Assembly: GCF_021155765.1 (NCBI RefSeq)
Contig: NC_060110.1
Location: 7,067,501 to 7,131,500, forward strand
Source of the DNA: Diprion similis
Lineage: Eukaryota; Arthropoda; Insecta; Hymenoptera; Diprionidae
Direction: 5' to 3'
Length of the DNA stretch: 64,000 nt
Shown: one piece after another, positions 40,738 through 64,000 of the stretch
Numbering within the stretch: the stretch's first letter is position 1
Layout: each line of letters starts with the position of its first letter
Translations under genes and position numbers: made by a program
The notes under the pieces: model-generated
Seen by the model: only the letters and a program-made list of their open reading frames with translations
Told to the model about the DNA's origin: nothing
Databases searched by the model: none

Positions 40738-40990
40738 CGGAATCGATTTGTATGACCGTTTATAGTCTAATTCACATCGTAAGGAGCATAGAACCAACAG
40801 CAAAAGAGTGATGAAAAAAAAACCGGCAGCTGTGATATTACAAAAAGCATGTTTCGTCTTTCGGCCGTGACTTTTGATGCGTTGCTCGCAGCGCGTTCGA
40901 ACTGCGATCAATCGATTGCTTTCGCAAAATTACAACGGAATAAAGCCCAATAGAATTATTTGCAGCACTTTTTAGAATCGTCGAAATTTT
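40738..40990. repeat. Degenerate left-edge monomer of the 312-bp satellite
   Basis: From aatcgatttgtatgaccgtt onward this follows the monomer order (aggaccaacagcag-like, gttgctcgcagcg, cgcaaaattac, gcagcactttt) with many substitutions and small insertions. It then jumps at about 40990 into gatgaaaatctgcag, skipping part of the unit. The homogeneous array starts directly after it. Decay at the array edge is typical of satellites maintained by unequal exchange. Confidence 0.8.
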
Positions 40991-43900
40991 GACGATGAAA
41001 ATCTGCAGTTTTTTGCCTGTAACTTCTGATCCGTTGCTCGCAGCGTATTGGGACTGCGCTCGATCGATTTCTCTCGCAAAATTACGTCGGAATAGTGCCC
41101 CAAAGAATCAATCGCAGCACTTTTCAAAGTCGACGAAATTTTCGCCAAAAATCCAAAGGGGTTAGCCTTACTTTTTTTGCGATATTTGGAGCCGAAAATT
41201 TCTGGTCTCCGAATCGATTTGCACGACCGTTACTAGGCTAATTGGAACCTCAGGAACTCAAAAAACACAATAAAAAGAGCGTAGGACCAACAGCAGAGAA
41301 ATGCGGATGAAAATCTGCAGTTTTTTGGCCGTAACTTTTGATCCGTTGCTCGCAGCGTATGGGGACTGCGCTTGATCGATTTCTCTCGCAAAATTACGTC
41401 GGAATAGTGCCCTAAAGAATCAATTGCAGCACTTTTCAAAGTCGACGAAATTTTCGCCAAAAATCCAAAGGGGTTAGCCTGACTTTTTGTGCGATTTTTG
41501 GAGCCGAAAATTTCTGGTCTCCGAATCGATTTGTATGACCGTTTCTAGGCTAATTGGAACCTCAGGAACTCAAAAAACACATTAAAAAGAGCGTAGGACC
41601 TACAGCAGAGAAATGACGATGAAAATCTGCAGTTTTTTGCCTGTAACTTCTGATCCGTTGCTCGCAGCGTATTGGGACTGCGCTCGATCGATTTCTCTCG
41701 CAAAATTACGTCGGAATAGTGCCCCAAAGAATCAATCGCAGCACTTTTCAAAGTCGACGAAATTTTCGCCAAAAATCCAAAGGGGTTAGCCTTACTTTTT
41801 TTGCGATTTTTGGAGCCGAAAATTTCTGGTCTCCGAATCGATTTGCACGACCGTTACTAGGCTAATTGGAACCTCAGGAACTCAAAAGACACAATAAAAA
41901 GAGCGTAGGACCAACAGCAGAGAAATGAGGATGAAAATCTGCAGTTTTTTGGCCGTAACTTTTGATCCGTTGCTCGCAGCGTATGGGGACTGCGCTTGAT
42001 CGATTTCTCTCGCAAAATTACGTCGGAATAGTGCCCTAAAGAATCAATTGCAGCACTTTTCAAAGTCGCCGAAATTTTCGCCAAAAATCCAAAGGGGTTA
42101 GCCTTACTTTTTTTGCGATTTTTGGAGCCGAAAATTTCTGGTCTCGGAATCGATTTGCACGACCGTTACTAGGCTAATTGGAACCTCAGGAACTCAAAAA
42201 ACACAATAAAAAGAGCGTAGGACCAACAGCAGAGAAATGAGGATGAAAATCTGCAGTTTTTTGCCTGTAACTTCTGATCCGTTGCTCGCAGCGTATTGGG
42301 ACTGCGCTCGATCGATTTCTCTCGCAAAATTACGTCGGAATAGTGCCCCAAAGAATCGATTGCAGCACTTTTCAAAGTCGACGAAATTTCCGCCAAAAAT
42401 CCAAAGGGGTTAGCCTTACTTTTTTTGCGATTTTTGGAGCCGAAAATTTCTGGTCTCCGAATCGATTTGCACGACCGTTACTAGGCTAATTGGAACCTCA
42501 GGAACTCAAAAAACACAATAAAAAGAGCGTAGGACCAACAGCAGAGAAATGAGGATGAAAATCTGCAGTTTTTTGGCCGTAACTTTTGATCCGTTGCTCG
42601 CAGCGTATGGGGACTGCGCTTGATCGATTTCTCTCGCAAAATTACGTCGGAATAGTGCCCTAAAGAATCAATTGCAGCACTTTTCAAAGTCGCCGAAATT
42701 TTCGCCAAAAATCCAAAGGGGTTAGCCTTACTTTTTTTGCGATTTTTGGAGCCGAAAATTTCTGGTCTCCGAATCGATTTGTATGACCGTTTCTAGGCTA
42801 ATTGGAACCTCAGGAACTCAAAAAACACATTAAAAAGAGCGTAGGACCAACAGCAGAGAAATGACGATGAAAATCTGCAGTTTTTTGCCTGTAACTTCTG
42901 ATCCGTTGCTCGCAGCGTATTGGGACTGCGCTCGATCGATTTCTCTCGCAAAATTACGTCGGAATAGTGCCCCAAAGAATCAATCGCAGCACTTTTCAAA
43001 GTCGACGAAATTTTCGCCAAAAATCCAAAGGGGTTAGCCTTACTTTTTTTGCGATTTTTGGAGCCGAAAATTTCTGGTCTCGGAATCGATTTGCACGACC
43101 GTTACTAGGCTAATTGGAACCTCAGGAACTCAAAAAACACAATAAAAAGAGCGTAGGACCAACAGCAGAGAAATGAGGATGAAAATCTGCAGTTTTTTGG
43201 CCGTAACTTTTGATCCGTTGCTCGCAGCGTATGGGGACTGCGCTTGATCGATTTCTCTCGCAAAATTACGTCGGAATAGTGCCCTAAAGAATCAATTGCA
43301 GCACTTTTCAAAGTCGCCGAAATTTTCGCCAAAAATCCAAAGGGGTTAGCCTTACTTTTTTTGCGATTTTTGGAGCCGAAAATTTCTGGTCTCCGAATCG
43401 ATTTGTATGACCGTTTCTAGGCTAATTGGAACCTCAGGAACTCAAAAAACACATTAAAAAGAGCGTAGGACCAACAGCAGAGAAATGACGATGAAAATCT
43501 GCAGTTTTTTGCCTGTAACTTCTGATCCGTTGCTCGCAGCGTATTGGGACTGCGCTCGATCGATTTCTCTCGCAAAATTACGTCGGAATAGTGCCCCAAA
43601 GAATCAATCGCAGCACTTTTCAAAGTCGACGAAATTTTCGCCAAAAATCCAAAGGGGTTAGCCTTACTTTTTTTGCGATTTTTGGAGCCGAAAATTTCTG
43701 GTCTCGGAATCGATTTGCACGACCGTTACTAGGCTAATTGGAACCTCAGGAACTCAAAAAACACAATAAAAAGAGCGTAGGACCAACAGCAGAGAAATGA
43801 GGATGAAAATCTGCAGTTTTTTGGCCGTAACTTTTGATCCGTTGCTCGCAGCGTATGGGGACTGCGCTTGATCGATTTCTCTCGCAAAATTACGTCGGAA

Positions 43901-46900
43901 TAGTGCCCTAAAGAATCAATTGCAGCACTTTTCAAAGTCGCCGAAATTTTCGCCAGAATCCAAAGGGGTTAGCCTTACTTTTTTTGCGATTTTTGGAGCC
44001 GAAAATTTCTGGTCTCCGAATCGATTTGTATGACCGTTTCTAGGCTAATTGGAACCTCAGGAACTCAAAAAACACATTGAAAAGAGCGTAGGACCAACAG
44101 CAGAGAAATGACGATGAAAATCTGCAGTTTTTTGCCTGTAACTTCTGATCCGTTGCTCGCAGCGTATTGGGACTGCGCTCGATCGATTTCTCTCGCAAAA
44201 TTACGTCGGAATAGTGCCCCAAAGAATCAATCGCAGCACTTTTCAAAGTCCACGAAATTTTCGCCAAAAATCCAAAGGGGTTAGCCTTACTTTTTTTGCG
44301 ATTTTTGGAGCCGAAAATTTCTGGTCTCCGAATCGATTTGCACGACCGTTACTAGGCTAATTGGAACCTCAGGAACTCAAAAAACACAATAAAAAGAGCG
44401 TAGGACCAACAGCAGAGAAATGAGGATGGAAATCTGCAGTTTTTTGGCCGTAACTTTTGATCCGTTGCTCGCAGCGTATGGGGACTGCGCTTGATGGATT
44501 TCTCTCGCAAAATTACGTCGGAATAGTGCCCTGAAGAATCAATTGCAGCACTTTTCAAAGTCGACGAAATTTTCGCCAAAAATCCAAAGGGGTTAGCCTT
44601 ACTTTTTTTGCGATATTTGGAGCCGAAAATTTCTGGTCTCCGAATCGATTTGTATGACCGTGTCTAGGCTAATTGGAACCTCAGGAACTCAAAAAACACA
44701 TTCAAAAGAGCGTAGGACCAACAGCAGAGAAATGACGATGAAAATCTGCAGTTTTTTGCCTGTAACTTCTGATCCGTTGCTCGCAGCGTATTGGGACTGA
44801 GCTCGATCGATTTCTCTCGCAAAATTACGTCGGAATAGTGCCCTGAAGAATCAATTGCAGCACTTTTCAAAGTCGCCGAAATTTTCGCCAAAAATCCAAA
44901 GGGGTTAGCCTTACTTTTTTTGCGATTTTTGGAGCCGAAAATTTCTGGTCTCCGAATCGATTTGTATGACCGTTTCTAGGCTAATTGGAACCTCAGGAAC
45001 TCAAAAAACACATTAAAAAGAGCGTAGGACCAACAGCAGAGAAATGACGATGAAAATCTGCAGTTTTTTGCCTGTAACTTCTGATCCGTTGCTCGCAGCG
45101 TATTGGGACTGCGCTCGATCGATTTCTCTCGCAAAATTACGTCGGAATAGTGCCCCAAAGAATCAATCGCAGCACTTTTCAAAGTCGACGAAATTTTCGC
45201 CAAAAATCCAAAGGGGTTAGCCTTACTTTTTTTGCGATTTTTGGAGCCGAAAATTTCTGGTCTCCGAATCGATTTGTATGACCGTGTCTAGGCTAATTGG
45301 AACCTCAGGAACTCAAAAAACACATTCAAAAGAGCGTAGGACCAACAGCAGAGAAATGACGATGAAAATCTGCAGTTTTTTGCCTGTAACTTCTGATCCG
45401 TTGCTCGCAGCGTATTGGGACTGAGCTCGATCGATTTCTCTCGCAAAATTACGTCGGAATAGTGCCCTGAAGAATCAATTGCAGCACTTTTCAAAGTCGT
45501 CGAAATTTTCGCCAAAAATCCAAAGGGGTTAGCCTTACTTTTTTCGCGATTTTTGGAGCCGAAAATTTCTGGTCTCCGAATCGATTTGTTTGACCGTTTC
45601 TAGACTAATTGGAACCTCAGGAACTCAAAAAACACAATAAAAAGAGCGTAGGACCAACAGCAGAGAAATGAGGATGAAAATCTGCAGTTTTTTGGCCGTA
45701 ACTTTTGATCCGTTGCTCGCAGCGTATGGGGACTGCGCTTGATCGATTTCTCTCGCAAAATTACGTCGGAATAGTGCCCTAAAGAATCAATTGCAGCACT
45801 TTTCAAAGTCGACGAAATTTTCGCCAAAAATCCAAAGGGGTTAGCCTTACTTTTTTTGCGATTTTTGGAGCCGAAAATTTCTGGTCTCCGGATCGATTTG
45901 TATGACCGTGTCTCGGCTAATTGGAACCTCAGGAACTCAAAAAACACATTCAAAAGAGCGTAGGACCAACAGCAGAGAAATGACGATAAAAATCTGCAGT
46001 TTTTTGCCTGTAACTTTTGATCCGTTGCTCGCAGCGTGTTGAGACTGCGCTTGAATGATTTCTCTCGCAAAATTACGTCGGAATAGTGCCCTAAAGAATC
46101 AATTGCAGCACTTTTCAAAGTCGACGAAATTTTCGCCAAAAATCCAAAGGGGTTAGCCTTACTTTTTTTGCGATTTTTGGAGCCGAAAATTTCTGGTCTC
46201 CGAATCGATTTGTATGACCGTTTCTAGGCTAATTGGAACCGCAGGAACTCAAAAAACACATTAAAAAGAGCGTAGGACCAGCAGCAGAGAAATGACGATG
46301 AAAATCTGCAGTTTTTTGCCTGTAACTTCTGATCCGTTGCTCGCAGCGTATTGGGACTGCGCTCGATCGATTTCTCTCGCAAAATTACGTCGGAATAGTG
46401 CCTTAAAGAATCAATTGCAGCACTTCTCAAAGTCGTCAAAATTTTGGTCAAAAATCCAAAGGGGTTAGCCTTACTTTTTTTGCGATTTTTGGAGACGAAA
46501 ATTTCTGGTCTCCGAATCGATTTGTATGACCGTTTCTAGGCTAATTGGAACCGCAGGAACTCAAAAAACACAATAAAAAGAGCGTAGGACCAACAGCAGA
46601 GAAATGAGGATGAAAATCTGCAGTTTTTTGGCCGTAACTTTTGATCCGTTGCTCGCAGCGTATGGGGACTGCGCTTGATCGATTTCTCTCGCAAAATTAC
46701 GTCGGAATAGTGCCCTAAAGAATCAATTGCAGCACTCTTCAAAGTCGTCGAAATTTTCGCCAAAAATCCAAAGGGGTTAGCCTTACTTTTTTTGCGATTT
46801 TTGGAGACGAAAATTTCTGGTCTCCGAATCGATTTGTATGACCGTTTCTAGGCTAATTGGAACCTCAGGAACTCAAAAAATACATTAAAAAGAGCGTAGG

Positions 46901-49900
46901 ACCAGCAGCAGAGAAATGACGATGAAAATCTGCAGTTTTTTGGCTGTAACTTTTGATCCGTTGCTCGCAGCGTGTTGAGACTGCGCTTGAATGATTTCTC
47001 TCGCAAAATTACGTCGGAATAGTGCCCCAAAGAATCAATTGCAGCACTTTTCAAAGTCGACGAAATTTTCGCCAAAAATCCAAAGGGGTTAGCCTTACTT
47101 TTTTTGCGATTTTTGGAGCCGAAAATTTCTGGTCTCCGAATCGATTTGTATGACCGTTTCTAGGCTAATTGGAACCTCAGGAACTCAAAAAACACATTAA
47201 AAAGAGCGTAGGACCAGCAGCAGAGAAATGACGATGAAAATCTGCAGTTTTTTGGCTGTAACTTTTGATCCGTTGCTCGCAGCGTGTTGAGACTGCGCTT
47301 GATCGATTTCTCTCGCAAATTTACGTCGGAATAGTGCCCCAAAGAATCAATTGCAGCACTTTTCAAAGTCGACGAAATTTTCGCCAAAAATCCAAAGGGG
47401 TTAGCCTTACTTTTTTTGCGATTTTTGGAGCCGAAAATTTCTGGTCTCCGAATCGATTTGTATGACCGTTTCTAGGCTAATTGGAACCTCAGGAACTCAA
47501 AAAACACATTAAAAAGAGCGTAGGACCAACAGCAGAGAAATGACGATGAAAATCTGCAGTTTTTTGCCTGTAACTTCTGATCCGTTGCTCGCAGCGTATT
47601 GGGACTGCGCTCGATCGATTTCTCTCGCAAAATTACGTCGGAATAGTGCCTTAAAGAATCAATTGCAGCACTTCTCAAAGTCGTCAAAATTTTGGTCAAA
47701 AATCCAAAGGGGTTAGCCTTACTTTTTTTGCGATTTTTGGAGCCGAAAATTTCTGGTCTCCGAATCGATTTGTATGACCGTTTCTAGGCTAATTGGAACC
47801 TCAGGAACTCAAAAAACACATTAAAAAGAGCGTAGGACCAACAGCAGAGAAATGACGATGAAAATCTGCAGTTTTTTGCCTGTAACTTCTGATCCGTTGC
47901 TCGCAGCGTATTGGGACTGCGCTCGATCGATTTCTCTCGCAAAATTACGTCGGAATAGTGCCCCAAAGAATCAATCGCAGCACTTTTCAAAGTCGACGAA
48001 ATTTTCGCCAAAAATCCAAAGGGGTTAGCCTTACTTTTTTTGCGATTTTTGGAGCCGAAAATTTCTGGTCTCGGAATCGATTTGCACGACCGTTACTAGG
48101 CTAATTGGAACCTCAGGAACTCAAAAAACACAATAAAAAGAGCGTAGGACCAACAGCAGAGAAATGAGGATGAAAATCTGCAGTTTTTTGGCCGTAACTT
48201 TTGATCCGTTGCTCGCAGCGTATGGGGACTGCGCTTGATCGATTTCTCTCGCAAAATTACGTCGGAATAGTGCCCTAAAGAATCAATTGCAGCACTTTTC
48301 AAAGTCGCCGAAATTTTCGCCAAAAATCCAAAGGGGTTAGCCTTACTTTTTTTGCGATTTTTGGAGCCGAAAATTTCTGGTCTCCGAATCGATTTGTATG
48401 ACCGTTTCTAGGCTAATTGGAACCTCAGGAACTCAAAAAACACATTAAAAAGAGCGTAGGACCAACAGCAGAGAAATGACGATGAAAATCTGCAGTTTTT
48501 TGCCTGTAACTTCTGATCCGTTGCTCGCAGCGTATTGGGACTGCGCTCGATCGATTTCTCTCGCAAAATTACGTCGGAATAGTGCCCCAAAGAATCAATC
48601 GCAGCACTTTTCAAAGTCCACGAAATTTTCGCCAAAAATCCAAAGGGGTTAGCCTTACTTTTTTTGCGATTTTTGGAGCCGAAAATTTCTGGTCTCCGAA
48701 TCGATTTGCACGACCGTTACTAGGCTAATTGGAACCTCAGGAACTCAAAAAACACAATAAAAAGAGCGTAGGACCAACAGCAGAGAAATGAGGATGGAAA
48801 TCTGCAGTTTTTTGGCCGTAACTTTTGATCCGTTGCTCGCAGCGTATGGGGACTGCGCTTGATGGATTTCTCTCGCAAAATTACGTCGGAATAGTGCCCT
48901 GAAGAATCAATTGCAGCACTTTTCAAAGTCGACGAAATTTTCGCCAAAAATCCAAAGGGGTTAGCCTTACTTTTTTTGCGATATTTGGAGCCGAAAATTT
49001 CTGGTCTCCGAATCGATTTGTATGACCGTGTCTAGGCTAATTGGAACCTCAGGAACTCAAAAAACACATTCAAAAGAGCGTAGGACCAACAGCAGAGAAA
49101 TGACGATGAAAATCTGCAGTTTTTTGCCTGTAACTTCTGATCCGTTGCTCGCAGCGTATTGGGACTGAGCTCGATCGATTTCTCTCGCAAAATTACGTCG
49201 GAATAGTGCCCTGAAGAATCAATTGCAGCACTTTTCAAAGTCGTCGAAATTTTCGCCAAAAATCCAAAGGGGTTAGCCTTACTTTTTTCGCGATTTTTGG
49301 AGCCGAAAATTTCTGGTCTCCGAATCGATTTGTTTGACCGTTTCTAGACTAATTGGAACCTCAGGAACTCAAAAAACACAATAAAAAGAGCGTAGGACCA
49401 ACAGCAGAGAAATGAGGATGAAAATCTGCAGTTTTTTGGCCGTAACTTTTGATCCGTTGCTCGCAGCGTATGGGGACTGCGCTTGATCGATTTCTCTCGC
49501 AAAATTACGTCGGAATAGTGCCCTAAAGAATCAATTGCAGCACTTTTCAAAGTCGACGAAATTTTCGCCAAAAATCCAAAGGGGTTAGCCTTACTTTTTT
49601 TGCGATTTTTGGAGCCGAAAATTTCTGGTCTCCGGATCGATTTGTATGACCGTGTCTCGGCTAATTGGAACCTCAGGAACTCAAAAAACACATTCAAAAG
49701 AGCGTAGGACCAACAGCAGAGAAATGACGATAAAAATCTGCAGTTTTTTGCCTGTAACTTTTGATCCGTTGCTCGCAGCGTGTTGAGACTGCGCTTGAAT
49801 GATTTCTCTCGCAAAATTACGTCGGAATAGTGCCCTAAAGAATCAATTGCAGCACTTTTCAAAGTCGACGAAATTTTCGCCAAAAATCCAAAGGGGTTAG

Positions 49901-52900
49901 CCTTACTTTTTTTGCGATATTTGGAGCCGAAAATTTCTGGTCTCCGAATCGATTTGCATGACCGTTTCTAGGCTAATTGGAACCTCAGGAACTCAAAAAA
50001 CACATTAAAAAGAGCGTAGGACCAACAGCAGAGAAATGAGGATGAAAATCTGCAGTTTTTTGGCCGTAACTTCTGATCCGTTGCTCGCAGCGTATTGGGA
50101 CTGCGCTCGATCGATTTCTCTCGCGAAATTACGTCGGAATAGTGCCTTAAAGAATCAATTGCAGCACTTCTCAAAGTCGTCAAAATTTTGGTCAAAAATC
50201 CAAAGGGGTTAGCCTTACTTTTTTTGCGATTTTTGGAGCCGAAAATTTCTGGTCTCCGAATCGATTTGTATGACCGTGTCTAGGCTAATTGGAACCTCAG
50301 GAACTCAAAAAACACATTCAAAAGAGCGTAGGACCAACAGCAGAGAAATGACGATGAAAATCTGCAGTTTTTTGCCTGTAACTTCTGATCCGTTGCTCGC
50401 AGCGTATTGGGACTGAGCTCGATCGATTTCTCTCGCAAAATTACGTCGGAATAGTGCCCTGAAGAATCAATTGCAGCACTTTTCAAAGTCGTCGAAATTT
50501 TCGCCAAAAATCCAAAGGGGTTAGCCTTACTTTTTTCGCGATTTTTGGAGCCGAAAATTTCTGGTCTCCGAATCGATTTGTTTGACCGTTTCTTGACTAA
50601 TTGGAACCTCAGGAACTCAAAAAACACAATAAAAAGAGCGTAGGACCAACAGCAGAGAAATGAGGATGAAAATCTGCAGTTTTTTGGCCGTAACTTTTGA
50701 TCCGTTGCTCGCAGCGTATGGGGACTGCGCTTGATCGATTTCTCTCGCAAAATTACGTCGGAATAGTGCCCTACAGAATCAATTGCAGCACTTTTCAAAG
50801 TCGACGAAATTTTCGCCAAAAATCCAAAGGGGTTAGCCTTACTTTTTTTGCGATTTTTGGAGCCGAAAATTTCTGGTCTCCGAATCGATTTGTATGACCG
50901 TTTCTAGGCTAATTGGAACCTCAGGAACTCAAAAAACACATTAAAAAGAGCGTAGGACCAGCAGCAGAGAAATGACGATGAAAATCTGCAGTTTTTTGGC
51001 TGTAACTTTTGATCCGTTGCTCGCAGCGTGTTGAGACTGCGCTTGATCGATTTCTCTCGCAAAATTACGTCGGAATAGTGCCCTAAAGAATCAATTGCAG
51101 CACTCTTCAAAGTCGTCGAAATTTTCGCCAAAAATCCAAAGGGGTTAGCCTTACTTTTTTTGCGATTTTTGGAGACGAAAATTTCTGGTCTCCGAATCGA
51201 TTTGTATGACCGTTTCTAGGCTAATTGGAACCGCAGGAACTCAAAAAACACAATAAAAAGAGCGTAGGACCAACAGCAGAGAAATGAGGATGAAAATCTG
51301 CAGTTTTTTGGCCGTAACTTTTGATCCGTTGCTCGCAGCGTATGGGGACTGCGCTTGATCGATTTCTCTCGCAAAATTACGTCGGAATAGTGCCCTAATG
51401 AATCAATTGCAGCACTCTTCAAAGTCGTCGAAATTTTCGCCAAAAATCCAAAGGGGTTAGCCTTACTTTTTTTGCGATTTTTGGAGACGAAAATTTCTGG
51501 TCTCCGAATCGATTTGTATGACCGTTTCTAGGCTAATTGGAACCTCAGGAACTCAAAAAATACATTAAAAAGAGCGTAGGACCAGCAGCAGAGAAATGAC
51601 GATGAAAATCTGCAGTTTTTTGGCTGTAACTTTTGATCCGTTGCTCGCAGCGTGTTGAGACTGCGCTTGAATGATTTCTCTCGCAAAATTACGTCGGAAT
51701 AGTGCCCTAAAGAATCAATTGCAGCACTTTTCAAAGTCGACGAAATTTTCGCCAAAAATCCAAAGGGGTTAGCCTTACTTTTTTTGCGATTTTTGGAGCC
51801 GAAAATTTCTGGTCTCCGAATCGATTTGTATGACCGTTTCTAGGCTAATTGGAACCGCAGGAACTCAAAAAACACATTAAAAAGAGCGTAGGACCAGCAG
51901 CAGAGAAATGACGATGAAAATCTGCAGTTTTTTGCCTGTAACTTCTGATCCGTTGCTCGCAGCGTATTGGGACTGCGCTCGATCGATTTCTCTCGCAAAA
52001 TTACGTCGGAATAGTGCCTTAAAGAATCAATTGCAGCACTTCTCAAAGTCGTCAAAATTTTGGTCAAAAATCCAAAGGGGTTAGCCTTACTTTTTTTGCG
52101 ATTTTTGGAGACGAAAATTTCTGGTCTCCGAATCGATTTGTATGACCGTTTCTAGGCTAATTGGAACCGCAGGAACTCAAAAAACACAATAAAAAGAGCG
52201 TAGGACCAACAGCAGAGAAATGAGGATGAAAATCTGCAGTTTTTTGGCCGTAACTTTTGATCCGTTGCTCGCAGCGTATGGGGACTGCGCTTGATCGATT
52301 TCTCTCGCAAAATTACGTCGGAATAGTGCCCTAAAGAATCAATTGCAGCACTCTTCAAAGTCGTCGAAATTTTCGCCAAAAATCCAAAGGGGTTAGCCTT
52401 ACTTTTTTTGCGATTTTTGGAGACGAAAATTTCTGGTCTCCGAATCGATTTGTATGACCGTTTCTAGGCTAATTGGAACCTCAGGAACTCAAAAAATACA
52501 TTAAAAAGAGCGTAGGACCAGCAGCAGAGAAATGACGATGAAAATCTGCAGTTTTTTGGCTGTAACTTTTGATCCGTTGCTCGCAGCGTGTTGAGACTGC
52601 GCTTGAATGATTTCTCTCGCAAAATTACGTCGGAATAGTGCCCCAAAGAATCAATTGCAGCACTTTTCAAAGTCGACGAAATTTTCGCCAAAAATCCAAA
52701 GGGGTTAGCCTTACTTTTTTTGCGATTTTTGGAGCCGAAAATTTCTGGTCTCCGAATCGATTTGTATGACCGTTTCTAGGCTAATTGGAACCTCAGGAAC
52801 TCAAAAAACACATTAAAAAGAGCGTAGGACCAGCAGCAGAGAAATGACGATGAAAATCTGCAGTTTTTTGGCTGTAACTTTTGATCCGTTGCTCGCAGCG

Positions 52901-55900
52901 TGTTGAGACTGCGCTTGATCGATTTCTCTCGCAAAATTACGTCGGAATAGTGCCCTAAAGAATCAATTGCAGCACTCTTCAAAGTCGTCGAAATTTTCGC
53001 CAAAAATCCAAAGGGGTTAGCCTTACTTTTTTTGCGATTTTTGGAGACGAAAATTTCTGGTCTCCGAATCGATTTGTATGACCGTTTCTAGGCTAATTGG
53101 AACCGCAGGAACTCAAAAAACACATTAAAAAGAGCGTAGGACCAGCAGCAGAGAAATGACGATGAAAATCTGCAGTTTTTTGGCTGTAACTTTTGATCCG
53201 TTGCTCGCAGCGTGTTGAGACTGCGCTTGAATGATTTCTCTCGCAAAATTACGTCGGAATAGTGCCCCAAAGAATCAATTGCAGCACTTTTCAAAGTCGA
53301 CGAAATTTTCGCCAAAAATCCAAAGGGGTTAGCCTTACTTTTTTTGCGATTTTTGGAGCCGAAAATTTCTGGTCTCCGAATCGATTTGTATGACCGTTTC
53401 TAGGCTAATTGGAACCTCAGGAACTCAAAAAACACATTAAAAAGAGCGTAGGACCAGCAGCAGAGAAATGACGATGAAAATCTGCAGTTTTTTGGCTGTA
53501 ACTTTTGATCCGTTGCTCGCAGCGTGTTGAGACTGCGCTTGATCGATTTCTCTCGCAAAATTACGTCGGAATAGTGCCCTAAAGAATCAATTGCAGCACT
53601 CTTCAAAGTCGTCGAAATTTTCGCCAAAAATCCAAAGGGGTTAGCCTTACTTTTTTTGCGATTTTTGGAGACGAAAATTTCTGGTCTCCGAATCGATTTG
53701 TATGACCGTTTCTAGGCTAATTGGAACCGCAGGAACTCAAAAAACACATTAAAAAGAGCGTAGGACCAGCAGCAGAGAAATGACGATGAAAATCTGCAGT
53801 TTTTTGGCTGTAACTTTTGATCCGTTGCTCGCAGCGTGTTGAGACTGCGCTTGATCGATTTCTCTCGCAAAATTACGTCGGAATAGTGCCCTAAAGAATC
53901 AATTGCAGCACTCTTCAAAGTCGTCGAAATTTTCGCCAAAAATCCAAAGGGGTTAGCCTTACTTTTTTTGCGATTTTTGGAGACGAAAATTTCTGGTCTC
54001 CGAATCGATTTGTATGACCGTTTCTAGGCTAATTGGAACCGCAGGAACTCAAAAAACACATTAAAAAGAGCGTAGGACCAGCAGCAGAGAAATGACGATG
54101 AAAATCTGCAGTTTTTTGGCTGTAACTTTTGATCCGTTGCTCGCAGCGTGTTGAGACTGCGCTTGATCGATTTCTCTCGCAAATTTACGTCGGAATAGTG
54201 CCCCAAAGAATCAATTGCAGCACTTTTCAAAGTCGACGAAATTTTCGCCAAAAATCCAAAGGGGTTAGCCTTACTTTTTTTGCGATTTTTGGAGCCGAAA
54301 ATTTCTGGTCTCCGAATCGATTTGTATGACCGTTTCTAGGCTAATTGGAACCTCAGGAACTCAAAAAACACATTAAAAAGAGCGTAGGACCAACAGCAGA
54401 GAAATGACGATGAAAATCTGCAGTTTTTTGCCTGTAACTTCTGATCCGTTGCTCGCAGCGTATTGGGACTGCGCTCGATCGATTTCTCTCGCAAAATTAC
54501 GTCGGAATAGTGCCTTAAAGAATCAATTGCAGCACTTCTCAAAGTCGTCAAAATTTTGGTCAAAAATCCAAAGGGGTTAGCCTTACTTTTTTTGCGATTT
54601 TTGGAGCCGAAAATTTCTGGTCTCCGAATCGATTTGCACGACCGTTACTAGGCTAATTGGAACCTCAGGAACTCAAAAAACACAATAAAAAGAGCGTAGG
54701 ACCAACAGCAGAGAAATGAGGATGAAAATCTGCAGTTTTTTGGCCGTAACTTTTGATCCGTTGCTCGCAGCGTATGGGGACTGCGCTAGATCGATTTCTC
54801 TCGCAAAATTACGTCGGAATAGTGCCCTAAAGAATCAATTGCAGCACTCTTCAAAGTCGTCGAAATTTTCGCCAAAAATCCAAAGGGGTTAGCCTTACTT
54901 TTTTTGCGATTTTTGGAGACGAAAATTTCTGGTCTCCGAATCGATTTGTATGACCGTTTCTAGGCTAATTGGAACCTCAGGAACTCAAAAAACACAATAA
55001 AAAGAGCGTAGGACCAACAGCAGAGAAATGAGGATGAAAATCTGCAGTTTTTTGGCCGTAACTTTTGATCCGTTGCTCGCAGCGTATGGGGACTGCGCTT
55101 GATCGATTTCTCTCGCAAAATTACGTCGGAATAGTGCCCTAAAGAATCAATTGCAGCACTTTTCAAAGTCGTCGAAATTTTCGCCAAAAATCCAAAGGGG
55201 TTAGCCTTACTTTTTTTGCGATTTTTGGAGCCGAAAATTTCTGGTCTCCGAATCGATTTGTATGACCGTTTCTAGGCTAATTGGAACCTCAGGAACTCAA
55301 AAAACACATTAAAAAGAGCGTAGGACCAACAGCAGAGAAATGACGATGAAAATCTGCAGTTTTTTGCCTGTAACACTGATCCGTTGCTCGCAGCGTATTG
55401 AGACTGCGCTCGATCGATTTCTCTCGCAAAATTACGTCGGAATAGTGCCTTAAAGAATCAATTGCAGCACTTCTCAAAGTCGTCAAAATTTAGGTCAAAA
55501 ATCCAAAGGGGTTAGCCTTACTTTTTTTGCGATTTTTGGAGCCGAAAATTTCTGGTCTCCGAATCGATTTGCACGACCGTTACTAGGCTAATTGGAACCT
55601 CAGGAACTCAAAAAACACAATAAAAAGAGCGTAGGACCAACAGCAGAGAAATGAGGATGAAAATCTGCAGTTTTTCGGCCGTAACTTTTGATCCGTTGCT
55701 CGCAGCGTATGGGGACTGCGCTTGATCGATTTCTCTCGCAAAATTACGTCGGAATAGTGCCCTAAAGAATCAATTGCAGCACTCTTCAAAGTCGTCGAAA
55801 TTTTCGCCAAAAATCCAAAGGGGTTAGCCTTACTTTTTTTGCGATTTTTGGAGCCGAAAATTTCTGGTCTCCGAATCGATTTGCACGACCGTTACTAGGC

Positions 55901-57069
55901 TAATTGGAACCTCAGGAACTCAAAAAACACAATAAAAAGAGCGTAGGACCAACAGCAGAGAAATGAGGATGAAAATCTGCAGTTTTTTGGCCGTAACTTT
56001 TGATCCGTTGCTCGCAGCGTGTTGAGACTGCGCTTGATCGATTTCTCACGCAAAATTACGTCGGAATAGTGCCCCAAAGAATCAATTGCAGCACTTTTCA
56101 AAGTCGACGAAATTTTCGCCAAAAATCCAAAGGGGTTAGCCTTACTTTTTTTGCGATTTTTGGAGCCGAAAATTTCTGGTCTCCGAATCGATTTGCACGA
56201 CCGTTACTAGGCTAATTGGAACCTCAGGAACTCAAAAAACACAATAAAAAGAGCGTAGGACCAACAGCAGAGAAATGAGGATGAAAATCTGCAGTTTTTT
56301 GGCCGTAACTTTTGATCCGTTGCTCGCAGCGTATGGGGACTGCGCTTGATCGATTTGTCTTGCAAAATTACGTCGGAATAGTGCCCTAAAGAATCAATTG
56401 CAGCACTTTTCAAAGTCGTCGAAATTTTCGCCAAAAATCCAAAGGGGTTAGCCTTACTTTTTTTGCGATTTTTGGAGCCGAAAATTTCTGGTCTCCGAAT
56501 CGATTTGTATGACCGTTTCTAGGCTAATTGGAACCTCAGGAACTCAAAAAACACATTAAAAAGAGCGTAGGACCAACAGCAGAGAAATGACGATGAAAAT
56601 CTGCAGTTTTTTGCCTGTAACTTCTGATCCGTTGCTCGCAGCGTATTGGGACTGCGCTCGATCGATTTCTCTCGCAAAATTACGTCGGAATAGTGCCTTA
56701 AAGAATTAATTGCAGCACTTCTTAAAGTCGTCAAAATTTTGGTCAAAAATCCAAAGGGGTTAGCCTTACTTTTTTTGCGATTTTTGGAGCCGAAAATTTC
56801 TGGTCTCCGAATCGATTTGTATGACCGTTTCTAGGCTAATTGGAACCTCAGGAACTGAAAAAATACATTAAAAAGAGCGTAGGACCAACAGCAGAGAAAT
56901 GAAGATGAAAATCTGCAGTTTTTTGGCTGTAACTTTTGATCTGTTGGTCGCAGCGTATTGGGACTGCGCTCGATCGATTTCTCTCGCAAAATTACGTCGG
57001 AATAGTGCATCAAAGAATCAATTGCAGCACTTTTCAAAGTCGTTGAAATTTTCGCCAAAAATCCAAAGG
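40991..57069. repeat. Satellite DNA array, about 51 tandem 312-bp monomers
   Basis: A head-to-tail array of about 16.1 kb. Landmarks such as ttgctcgcagcg, ctcgcaaaattacgtcgg, ccaaaggggttagccttac and ctaggctaattggaacc recur every 312 bp throughout, with only two single-base deletions seen (near 43955 and 55371). Monomers differ at a limited set of positions, so subtypes can be tracked (for example gtatggggactgcgcttg versus gtattgggactgcgctcg versus gtgttgagactgcgcttg). The left third alternates two subtypes, giving a 624-bp dimer; blocks further right are duplicated. Each unit carries a minus-strand frame of about 75 codons, which I regard as incidental. The right edge ends in a diverged monomer at 56831-57069 that breaks off into unique sequence. 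There is no transposase or other known element inside. Confidence 0.97.
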
Positions 57070-59773: not shown

Positions 59774-60554
59774 TTAAGGTGCTTATAAAGTCGCGTTGTA
59801 CTCCGTGAAAATGCAGCGAGCCAAAACTCCTATACTGATCAAGCAATCATCATGTAACTTGGGTAATTGATGCCTTAATTTGGTAAAAAGTGGAGCGAAT
59901 TTTTGTTTTTGACAATATATAAAAAAAATTTACAGATCAGTTATAACTCACCGGAATTGGGAAAATTTTCAGTTGCACGAAAGGATTAAACTTCCGGTAC
60001 AATGCCACTTGGCGCTGATGAAACCAACACATTGAGCCCAGTCCCATAAGATTTAATGGTAAAATTACGAAAAGGCAGCTGATTTGTTTTTACGATTACA
60101 AAGAACACAGACATCTCATTTTGGCGACATTTTTTATCGACCTTACACGCAAGCCGGTAATTTTTTACCGAGATTACACGCATGTCGGTAAAAGATGTGG
60201 CCAAAATGAGATATCGGTGTTCTTCGTAATCGAAAACCAGATCAGCTGCCATTTCGTCAGTTTACCAACAAATCTTATGGGACTGAGCTTAAAGAGTGTG
60301 TTTCATTAGCGACGAGTGGCATCATACTGAATAGTTCGATCCTTTTGGTGCAACTGTGAAAATTTTCCCAATTTCGATGAGTGATAACCGATCTGTAAAT
60401 TTTTAAAAAATTTTCAAACACCAAAAACGTCGCTCCAATTTTTGCCAAAATAAAGTATCAATTGCCCAAGTTTCGTTCCGATCACTTGAGCAGTATAGGA
60501 TTTTTGGCCCACCCCGGTTTCGAGGTGTGCAACGCGACTTTATAAGCACCTTAA
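59774..60554. mobile_element. TTAA-bounded 781-bp foldback element next to the FNTB stop
   Basis: The left end TTAAGGTGCTTATAAAGTCG is mirrored exactly at the right end, and at least 25 terminal bases match perfectly. The symmetry continues nearly the whole way to a centre near 60165. Paired landmarks include tgatcaagcaatca-like/tgatcacttgagca, ggagcgaatttttg/caatttttgcc, cccataagatttaatgg/accaacaaatcttatggg and catctcattttggc/ggccaaaatgagat. TTAA at both ends is the signature of piggyBac-type insertion. No transposase is present, so it would be a non-autonomous palindromic element. It starts 3 bp downstream of the FNTB stop codon and so should form much of that gene's 3' UTR. Confidence 0.85.
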
Positions 60555-60557
60555 CAT

Positions 60558-62618
60558 TCAACGGCACATGGTGTCCAATTCTGGAATCTTTAACGTATTA
60601 AAGTAATTAAGAGCTGCAGATGCACAAGTTTGGACCAAGTTGTAGACTGGATGCACAGTGTCAACAGCATTGTTCCGACGGCTGCCAATGACCACAGATA
60701 CAGGCGAATTTTGGGCAACAGATAATCCACTTAGCGTGTAGCACGTGTGGTATACGTCTCTGGGCCTGAAAAAAAAATGAATTGTGTTATAGTGATACAA
60801 TTGCTAATCATGTACGCCTTATTTTTTTCTCATTACTTGTCTGGTTTGTCTAATAGCCCTCCTGATGGATGCTGACAGCAGGCTAGTAGGTACTTTTGTA
60901 GTGCTTCCTGGTCGTAGAGCCAGAAATCCGATTTGTATCCTTGTTCGCATAAAAGTGCGTGTATTAAGGGAAAGGCGCCACCTTGCCAGAAAGAGTAACA
61001 TCCATCGACGAGCTTATTAGTTCTGCCTTGAAAACCTCCTTCAAGTCGCATTTGCCTGTTCACAGTCCACCTCTGCAACAACAGTTTGGTATTTCATTTT
61101 TTTATGTCAAACCGTACTTTAGCATAGGATTCACTTTTGTGACACAAGTTTTCATCACTGTCTATGACAATAGACGTACTTTCTGGTTTTCAAATACATT
61201 TATCGTCATTTTCTAGACATGAAGTTGAGGATTCAATTGATTTTATTCCCAAGGTCATGAATCAGTGCTGTAAACTTAGAAGTGAAACAAATATACAAAA
61301 ATTGTTGGTTTTCAATCGTACCAGTAACGATGATATATCACACAGTTTGGACTTCTCGAGTAACAGTAATGCAGCCAGAGCACAAAAAGTGTATCCTCCG
61401 TGAGCTTCCATGCCTGGGCAGCCACCAAAGCCACCTTCCCATGTCTGGCAACTTGCTATCCACTCTCCGGTATTCTTGAACATTTCCGGATGATACACGT
61501 TAGTTAATCTGGCCACAGAAACGGCACAATATGCCCCTCGTATGTCAACTTCTCCCCCAATGTGCATACTGAACGCTCCCTCATCATCTCTCAAAGAAGA
61601 CAAGAATCGGCAGAGCGTCTGCCTGCGAAGGTAATTTATCAAATTGAATTAATTTAATGTTTTTTTAAATACTATTGCGGAGTTATTGTGAAGTATTTGA
61701 ATGTTGCTTAGAGTTTACCTATCTATTGTTTGATAAGCTTCTGGAGTCCCAATTGTGCAGAGAGCATTCACAGCTGCGTAGGTTGTTGCCAGATGGGGGT
61801 GTTGCCCTGGACCTCCACCAAAACCACCTTCTGGTGATTGGCATTTTGCTAAGAATCCTGCTATGTGAGAATAATCTTCGTCTTCTAATCTTTCCCCTAG
61901 TATTTGCAAAGCATGAAGTATCCAGTAACAGAGCCAAGGTCTGCTGCTATCGAGACACTATCACAAAGTAATTGCGGTTATCTTGCTTGTGGATTATACT
62001 TTTCTTTGTATTTTTGTGTTGTATTTGTGCATTTAGCGAATGGGAAAATTTGAATTGAGTGTGTCTAAAACTGCTTTGAACAAATTAAGATCTGAGACAA
62101 GATTTTGCTACAGTGAAAGTAGGCAGAACTTGGAATTCTGGTCTTTTTTGCCTCGGATGTTTACAATATTGCTTTACAGAACTCATAACTCGAATTGAAA
62201 ACTTCCGCTGTGCATAAAAAACCTACTTGGACTCTTTGATGTACAATTTGCTATATGTACAAAGAACTCATTACCTCATATGACTGCGAAAGATGCGTCA
62301 AGGAAGTTTTGAGGTAGAACACATGATTATCTCTTGCGAGTAGTGGAAGTTTACCCTCAAGGTCTTGGAGGTGCTGCATGACTTGATAAATCTTCAGTAC
62401 GGTAGTTTCAACCTCATCCTGAAGACAGAAATAAGTGTATTAGCAGTTTGAAAAATTACTCCAATGTCAGCAGCAGACACAATTCATACCTGCATGTCAG
62501 AACTGACAGTCTCAAAACCTTCAGTATCCTGTTTGTCATTAATCAAGTCCTCATACCGTTTGAATACCATTTTTTCTTCAGCCTCATCTTCGGCGTCGAT
62601 TGATTCCCAGTCACACAT
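60558..62618 (-). CDS. FNTB: Protein farnesyltransferase subunit beta
   Basis: Six coding exons in transcript order: 62618-62490, 62418-62275, 61957-61719, 61622-61322, 61072-60837 and 60765-60558, with GT-AG borders and consistent phases, giving 418 residues (human 437). With the alpha subunit this enzyme attaches farnesyl to the CaaX cysteine of Ras, lamins and other proteins in the cytosol. The prenyltransferase alpha-alpha repeats are clear: SRPWLCYWILHAL, CQSPEGGFGGGPGQ, HIGGEVDIRGAYCA, WEGGFGGCPGMEAHGGYTFC and EGGFQGRTNKLVDGCYSFW. The zinc ligands are present as Asp294, Cys296 and His356 (VYHTCY). The start ATG sits just after a possible acceptor (tttttttag), so a 5' UTR intron is possible. 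The 3' UTR begins with the TTAA foldback element. It is head-to-head with HMGCL. Confidence 0.93.
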
Positions 62619-63861
62619 AACCTAAAAAAATCGGTATGACAAGATTATGAATGATTTCGGCTGTTTTTTTCTTGGCAAAGGTTATAATGTTACGAAACAA
62701 GCAATGAGCGTCGATATGTTAAATTACGGTGTATAGCGGGTATTCTGTCCGATGGTAAAGAACTCGGTATGCTCTCGCATTAATATATCTTCAGTCAACG
62801 TTTCTTTTATGCCTGCATACTCCTTGCGTTACCCCACAACGGCACGTGAATGCCAGAAATAGAGCGTCGAAATTACTTGAATTCTTGGGTTTTTCGTTTC
62901 TGACACCCGGAGGATCCGAGAAAGTTGTGTTGGGTTAGGTTAGGTTAGGTTAGGTTAGGTTAGATCGCGTCATTACGGTCATAATTTTTATTCGAACTGT
63001 TTAAGGCTTATCAAGATTTTGACTACACGAACACATGGTTTTTTTGCATGATAAAAATCGGATCGTAATTCGAGAACTAATTTATGATAGATTAAGCTAG
63101 GTAGATGGGCTTAGGTTAGATTGGGCGATTGTGTTGATCACTGATTCCTCATGAATATATTTGACGAATGAAATTTGAGTTGCGCCAGATTTGTACTTAT
63201 GTTTATTTACTAGATAAGGGGACATTATCGTCGACCGAGTTCGCACTGACGACCTTTTATTCTCTTATCACAGTCATACAAGCTAGCCGGTTTTTCGAAT
63301 ACTTTAAATATCTGGTAAATATATTTTATTGCAGTAAGCCTTCAAGGTGTTGTAAGTATCAGAGGAATCGAATTTTCGGTATATATTTACTACAAGGTGG
63401 TATTTTAAATTGAAAACAAAAATAATGAAATAGAAATGAAAAGAATAATGAGAAAAATTCAATTTTATCATTTTTCGATAAATGTATGTAAAATAAATAA
63501 TCATGTAATATTTAGTATACGTAAAATCACGCCTTAACTCGTTCGATTAGCGTTATAATTTCAGTAATTAGCAAAATGACAAGCTGTGTTGCACAAGTCG
63601 TTAAATTTATGCAGGTATATCGATGAAAGTTTTTCTCTCTCCATTTCACCAAATATCTTTGCATCAGGCAATTATTTTCTTCACAAGTGATCCAATACAA
63701 GAAAGATAATCGATTTTGCATCTTTAAATACGATTAAGCTCAAAAAACTGTAATGCGGGTAATTATCAGTTGGTCAAGAAATGCTGCACAACATTGTCCC
63801 AACTGATGCGTACCATCAAATTAATCTTATTTTACTTTGGTACAGGACTGTGAGAACCAAA
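62619..63861. promoter_or_regulatory. Upstream region between FNTB (-) and HMGCL (+)
   Basis: About 1.24 kb between two divergent starts. It holds the TTAGG tract at 62935-62963. There is a possible 3' splice acceptor (ttggtacag at about 63837-63845) 16 nt before the HMGCL ATG, suggesting a 5' UTR intron. No coding exon was recognised; frames at 63168-63413 and 63527-63721 look random. Confidence 0.4.
62935..62963. repeat. Short interstitial (TTAGG)n tract
   Basis: Nearly six perfect units of TTAGG, the common arthropod telomere repeat, about 320 bp upstream of the FNTB start. A looser echo (cttaggttag) occurs near 63110. It is far too short to be a telomere. It may be a microsatellite, a telomere-repair scar or a promoter motif. 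Confidence 0.9.
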
Positions 63862-64000
63862 ATGTTGAATCCCAGTTGGAGGAAGATAGCGAGACACTTC
63901 AGTAACTATGTTAGAATAGTCGAAGTGGGGCCACGCGATGGATTGCAAAATGAGTCAGTTATCGTACCAGCTTTGACAAAAATCAGTTTTATAAATAAAC
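63862..64000 (+). CDS. HMGCL: Hydroxymethylglutaryl-CoA lyase, N-terminal part (cut by window end)
   Basis: The frame from the ATG at 63862 encodes 46 residues and runs off the window. After a basic, mitochondrial-type leader (MLNPSWRKIARHFSNYV) it reads RIVEVGPRDGLQNE, the start of the HMG-CoA lyase TIM barrel, whose Asp (here Asp27 of PRDGLQNE) binds the divalent metal. HMGCL splits HMG-CoA into acetoacetate and acetyl-CoA, the last step of leucine breakdown and of ketone-body synthesis in mitochondria. The only close alternative is another DRE-TIM metallolyase, but the VGPRDGLQNE string is characteristic. The rest of the gene, including the catalytic cysteine loop, lies outside. Confidence 0.88.
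   Translation, partial: MLNPSWRKIARHFSNYVRIVEVGPRDGLQNESVIVPALTKISFINK

Follow-up and report, generated by a model that had tools for sequence, protein, structure and literature searches.

The window, by which is meant the whole stretch of 64,000 nucleotides of Diprion similis DNA that was analysed, carries the FNTB gene on its minus strand and, directly beyond the FNTB stop codon, a palindromic element bounded by TTAA (Table 1). The gene was assigned by the Pfam family Prenyltrans, which was found in four of the five frames tested (62251-62439, the fifth, had none), and by the match of its last exon to farnesyltransferase beta subunits of solved structure. Seven GTTAG units, equivalent to TTAGG, the telomere unit of insects, lie at 62929-62963, upstream of the FNTB exons found. 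An open frame at 63763-63999 on the plus strand, presumably resembling the start of HMG-CoA lyase, gave no Pfam match at E 0.001. A 16-kb satellite array is located at window positions 40990-57069 (312-bp unit, 51.5 copies, 95% matches), and units of this satellite were also detected on contigs C1, C3, C4 and C8, mostly at 92-95% identity among the best 12 of 3334 candidates.

Table 1. Positions in the window of the palindromic element, the FNTB features and the candidate poly(A) signals
Feature	Position	Strand	Remark
Palindromic TTAA MITE	59774..60554	.	781 bp with both TTAA counted
TTAA target-site duplication, distal to FNTB	59774..59777	.	
TTAA target-site duplication, beside FNTB stop	60551..60554	.	
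Palindrome arm, distal for FNTB transcripts	59778..60163	.	
Palindrome arm, proximal for FNTB transcripts	60164..60550	.	palindrome centre near 60164
TATAAA	60539..60544	-	14 nt after stop; element tip, part of family tip
GATAAA	60133..60138	-	420 nt after stop
ATTAAA	60052..60057	-	501 nt after stop; second arm; family consensus ATCAAA there
First canonical AATAAA	59181..59186	-	1372 nt after stop; beyond element
FNTB stop codon TGA	60558..60560	-	3 bp from TTAA
FNTB last exon	60558..60803	-	open-frame bounds, not splice-site bounds
FNTB exon	60833..61093	-	open-frame bounds
FNTB exon	61262..61648	-	open-frame bounds
FNTB exon	61715..61957	-	open-frame bounds

The palindrome at the FNTB stop codon

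An earlier note on this DNA had described a 781-bp element with perfect ends, and the boundaries found here bear this out, as the outermost 25 bases form a perfect inverted repeat. The span given in that note, 59774..60560, begins at the correct base but runs past the end of the element, the six further bases being the TGA and an ATG; its statement that the element starts 3 bp past the TGA agrees with the minus-strand order TGA, ATG, TTAA. The near-complete internal symmetry that it proposed holds for the extent of the palindrome but not for the state of its arms, which have decayed to 81% identity (624 of 770 ungapped columns identical in an alignment of the element to its own reverse complement). 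The self-alignment score was 435, and the best of 100 base shuffles reached -5. At the centre of the palindrome, a 31-bp sequence is present twice in tandem (60129-60191).

No Pfam family was found over cut-off in the four element frames, where the sole match up to E = 1 had a value of 0.063 and was below cut-off. The viral collection contained no match to the element when searched with one 31-place pattern that included two free bases. At 781 bp, with arms 81% identical and no Pfam family over cut-off, the element is short, non-coding and bounded by terminal inverted repeats, as a MITE is. Two flank stretches searched at the insertion were single-copy in the D. similis genome. If 12,000 genes (an assumed figure) and 500-1000 insertions are taken, approximately 0.1-0.2 insertions are expected by chance in the first 3 bp beyond a stop codon, and one or two in the first 50 bp; the position of the element at the FNTB stop is uncommon and needs no special cause.

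A dispersed family and the probable source of its transposase

The species' own genome (269 Mb, 60 contigs) was searched for relatives of the element. The exact 17-nt family tip was found 607 times, and a related tip, with GCATAT for GCTTAT, another 135 times; the reversed control of the former and the control of the latter both gave 0. When the whole element was used as query, 80 matches were obtained at 40 places (the best 40 of 995 candidates), every place being matched on both strands, as must be so for a palindrome. The majority consensus of these 40 copies, the FNTB copy included, is 788 bp long; leaving aside 22 central gap columns, it is 97% self-complementary. Thirty-seven of the 40 scored copies are 777-800 bp in length, so that both copy number and uniformity of length are those of a MITE family. 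Both ends of TTAAGG...CCTTAA are preserved in 28 of the 40, the TTAA at each end being the target-site duplication, and the flanks are unrelated between copies. The copies studied are a non-random sample, comprising those ranked nearest to the FNTB copy, tips from C1-C4 and eight GTCGCG-like tips.

The proposal that this is an inserted TTAA element was therefore upheld by a multi-copy family with unrelated flanks. The element beside FNTB is a palindromic MITE, because it is a TTAA insertion without a coding domain and belongs to a dispersed family whose consensus is self-complementary. It is judged to be a further case of a known sort, an ordinary old mobile-element insertion. No description of this particular family was recognised in a literature search, and one may already exist.

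The GCATAT tips were inspected by eye among 100 of the 135 listed, and 11 of 16 inward-facing pairs were spaced 808-809 bp apart, for example C2:3197480-3198287, C4:6520871-6521678 and C6:562701-563508; this group is perhaps a recent wave. At C5:5898130-5898937 two such tips face outward over exactly 808 bp, which is the usual element length inside out.

Inverted repeats make up most of the element, as they do in the Foldback/Galileo type, and the target site of Galileo is presumably not TTAA. In the excerpts of PMC4168063 and PMC3688188 used here, the Galileo and Foldback-like elements of Drosophila resemble the present family in that their inverted repeats are very long and may constitute an entire copy, that their subfamilies are counted across the two repeats of a copy, and that one-armed copies occur; Galileo is a member of the P-superfamily and, unlike the present element, has longer, internally repetitive ends. 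The Xenopus T2-MITEs of the Kolobok superfamily, as they appear in the excerpt of PMC6004289, are similar to the present family in their TTAA target, purine-purine termini, non-autonomous nature and long life, but they end in AGGRR where this family has GGTGC, and they differ from the element studied here in that the latter is palindromic over its whole length. Coral piggyBac MITEs (CMITEs) share the TTAA target and the lack of coding sequence according to the excerpted part of PMC2872659, in which one allele with the element and one without it testify to a past insertion.

The termini of the family are GG...CC, with GGTGC following the TTAA, the end sequences of the family being GGTGCTTATAAAG or TTAAGGTGC. 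A TTAA target-site duplication is in keeping with both Kolobok and piggyBac, and TTAA is also the target of Sola3. Kolobok termini follow the rule 5'-RR...YY-3' in the excerpts of PMC9587614 and PMC6004289, which the GG...CC consensus obeys. The termini of piggyBac elements, CMITEs among them, are given as CC[C/T]T in the excerpt of PMC2872659, and the ends of bee piggyBacs as CCC, often CAC, in that of PMC10140906, and GGTGC corresponds to none of these. Because the ends fit the Kolobok rule, unlike those of piggyBac, the Kolobok superfamily is the most likely supplier of the transposase, judging by two terminal bases and the target site.

Mobilisation of the MITE by piggyBac, and not by Kolobok, is unlikely in view of the bases after the TTAA, which are GG and not CCC, CCT or CAC. 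The TTAA target does suit piggyBac, whose transposase domains gave 24 matches in the genome (some of them pieces of one gene), and bees have piggyBacs of the long-TIR type (200-493 bp; excerpt of PMC10140906). Furthermore, among 100 of the 135 GCATAT tips, the one at C10:702536 is located 3.7 kb upstream of a piggyBac transposase match in the right orientation, but such proximity may be due to chance where elements cluster.

A putative autonomous partner was sought at the tips of the Kolobok-like family. Among the first 100 of the 607 tips listed, 42 form 21 inward-facing pairs by eye, 15 of which are spaced 785-817 bp apart, and 58 are unpaired. No longer element was recognised at 34 of these 58 unpaired tips; the 34 loci consist of 14 full palindromes, six internal deletions, 13 truncated copies and one nested insertion. 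The two tips of L067, 8 kb apart, were found to belong to two separate copies, the first of which matches only part of the consensus. Sequence beyond 14 loci, compared all against all, was unshared except for matches of 103-303 bp.

The truncated loci L050, L052, L055, L057, L064 and L066 keep about one arm or less, and L049 keeps 58 bp. In L050, L055, L057 and L066 one arm is kept and the break lies at or near the palindrome centre, which is what breakage of palindromes at the hairpin would produce. At L079 (101-2074), 1.5 kb of other sequence stands between the family tip with approximately 21 bp and a further part of the arm, which looks like a nested insertion.

Age of the FNTB copy and joint change of the arms

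Arms were compared in 53 copies, namely the 40 described above except L045 and L046, which are truncated, together with 15 full copies found at tip loci. Copies were assigned to a young group if both arms were within 10% of the consensus over 355 arm columns, a cut-off set by ourselves. Forty-nine of the 53 are young, with arms 2-10% from the consensus, and the FNTB copy, L008, L009 and L013 are about 13-17% from it over the same columns. The FNTB copy is thus among the most diverged copies examined.

A tidy subfamily defined by GTCGCG tips was considered for the FNTB copy and rejected, as such tips are also carried by copies nearer the young consensus; L088, which has a GTCGCG-like tip, matches that consensus at 88-92% over one arm. 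For this reason an old group of ten arms from six copies was used instead, made up of the FNTB copy, L008, L009, L013 and the one-armed L066 and L084, and L088, L091 and L094 were placed in neither group. The consensus sequences of the old and young groups differ at 31 of 395 sites. When the old consensus was built without the FNTB copy, the arms of the latter differed from it at 42 of 390 and 54 of 394 sites, or 11-14% per arm. The FNTB copy and L008 have 16 arm-specific differences in common in the same orientation, versus one in the other, and pairs of young copies have a mean of five in common and up to 15 (1176 pairs). This is suggestive that part of the arm asymmetry of the FNTB copy may be older than its insertion.

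Arm mismatches of the FNTB copy, read on the FNTB strand, comprise 21 of G-U, 17 of A-C and 35 of transversion type, and those pooled from 39 other copies comprise 348 G-U versus 355 A-C. These counts do not clearly point to selection for RNA pairing in the FNTB copy, since under such selection a stronger bias towards G-U would be expected; a single copy leaves room for weak selection on the hairpin.

The two arms were then considered together at 22 sites diagnostic of the old versus the young group, which were selected with the FNTB copy excluded. Both arms of the FNTB copy are old at 16 of these, and of the remaining six, one is old in neither arm and five are old in a single arm. Both arms are likewise old at 15 of 20 such sites in L008, 16 of 18 in L009 and 15 of 19 in L013. 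Symmetric changes numbered 204 in the 53 copies, against a mean of 88.5 when arms were re-paired (s.d. 11.7, maximum 128, 500 trials), and 105 in the 49 young copies, against a re-paired mean of 71.0 (s.d. 7.6, maximum 92). The differences between subfamilies therefore fall at matching sites in the two arms.

Conversion of one arm by the other within single copies after insertion was not supported, because the arm tree places the two arms as sisters in only two of 55 copies (L009 and L013). In the young group, the arms of one copy differ by 7.6%, versus 8.0% between copies. A candidate case was L026, whose arms differ by 1.4% over the outer 355 columns and are 96% identical over their full length, and which matches no other copy at more than 93% (among the best 40 of 1001 candidates). 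Within-copy conversion was not supported here either, as none of its ten symmetric changes is private, and inheritance from a sublineage is an equally good reading of its symmetry. The scarcity of sister arms and the lack of private changes in L026 place any copying in source lineages between waves. It is possible, if somewhat doubtful, that the family renews its palindrome in this manner, with arms copied into each other in source lineages between waves of amplification, and that the FNTB copy is a remnant of an older wave. Such copying could proceed via hairpin- or cruciform-templated repair, and each wave would then start as a near-perfect dsRNA-coding element. In Galileo, divergence within subfamilies, taken over copies and both ends together, is far below that between subfamilies (excerpt of PMC4168063); given this like pattern, the joint change of arms is no new kind of behaviour. 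The present family, with waves that are distinguished by both arms together, offers a useful natural record of the way in which the halves of palindromic transposons remain similar.

The predicted hairpin and the ends of FNTB transcripts

The whole element, folded as RNA on the FNTB strand, has a predicted energy of -425.9 kcal/mol (z = -40.7), and none of 20 shuffles was as good. Approximately 326 pairs would form if the transcript runs through, in line with the hairpin of several hundred base pairs that had been proposed. The longest uninterrupted helices in the FNTB copy are 24, 21 and 21 bp, and in six other copies folded the longest helix is 57-285 bp, the upper value being that of L026. 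The hairpin of the FNTB copy is the weakest of the seven and is poor dsRNA among those relatives.

That the locus encodes a hairpin RNA or microRNA maintained by the host is extremely improbable, given that the family tip is present 607 times in the genome and that the arms have decayed without a clear G-U excess. Two Rfam models did score over the hairpin, MIR4208 at 47 bits (gathering 140, E 1.5e-05) and Yfr17 at 20.3 (gathering 50, E 0.79), sub-threshold values of the kind that a long hairpin may give; as both are below gathering, a microRNA identity was rejected.

Eleven poly(A) hexamers were looked for on the FNTB strand. As the earlier note had stated, there is no AATAAA inside the element on this strand, the first being at +1372. 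Its expectation that FNTB transcripts should carry the hairpin is sound as far as folding upon read-through is concerned, but 'should' is too strong, as TATAAA, GATAAA and ATTAAA (+14, +420 and +501) precede the AATAAA. With these earlier hexamers, the FNTB mRNA may contain the hairpin in full, in part or not at all, and the idea that FNTB must carry it gives way to a testable question on the FNTB poly(A) site.

A regulatory 3' UTR hairpin, in which the transcript would extend to the AATAAA and form a dsRNA stem that lowers protein output via Dicer, ADAR or nuclear retention, is suggested by the strength of the fold and by the lack of an earlier AATAAA. This is nevertheless quite improbable, as the longest uninterrupted helix is short beside those of the six other copies, any of the three earlier hexamers could end the transcript sooner, and the ratio of G-U to A-C mismatches fits neutral decay. 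A regulatory role of the element for FNTB is possible but unproven. Very probably, the element is an old non-autonomous MITE that entered a TTAA 3 bp beyond the FNTB stop in a single insertion, by means of a transposase acting in trans, most likely that of a Kolobok element, and that has since decayed neutrally. Any effect of this old MITE on FNTB would be exerted via the site at which the transcript is cut (+14, +420, +501 or +1372) and, if the element is read through, via a hairpin in the 3' UTR.

A case in which a 3' UTR MITE has been shown to matter is that of rice Ghd2, where, as here, a hairpin-forming MITE lies behind the coding region (excerpt of PMC5338036). The rice element is 217 nt long, its 3' end is mapped and repression is shown, whereas the present one is 781 bp and its hairpin is a predicted one. 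For FNTB, a transcript ending approximately 20 nt after the ATTAAA would have a predicted fold of -222.8, compared to -120 for shuffles.
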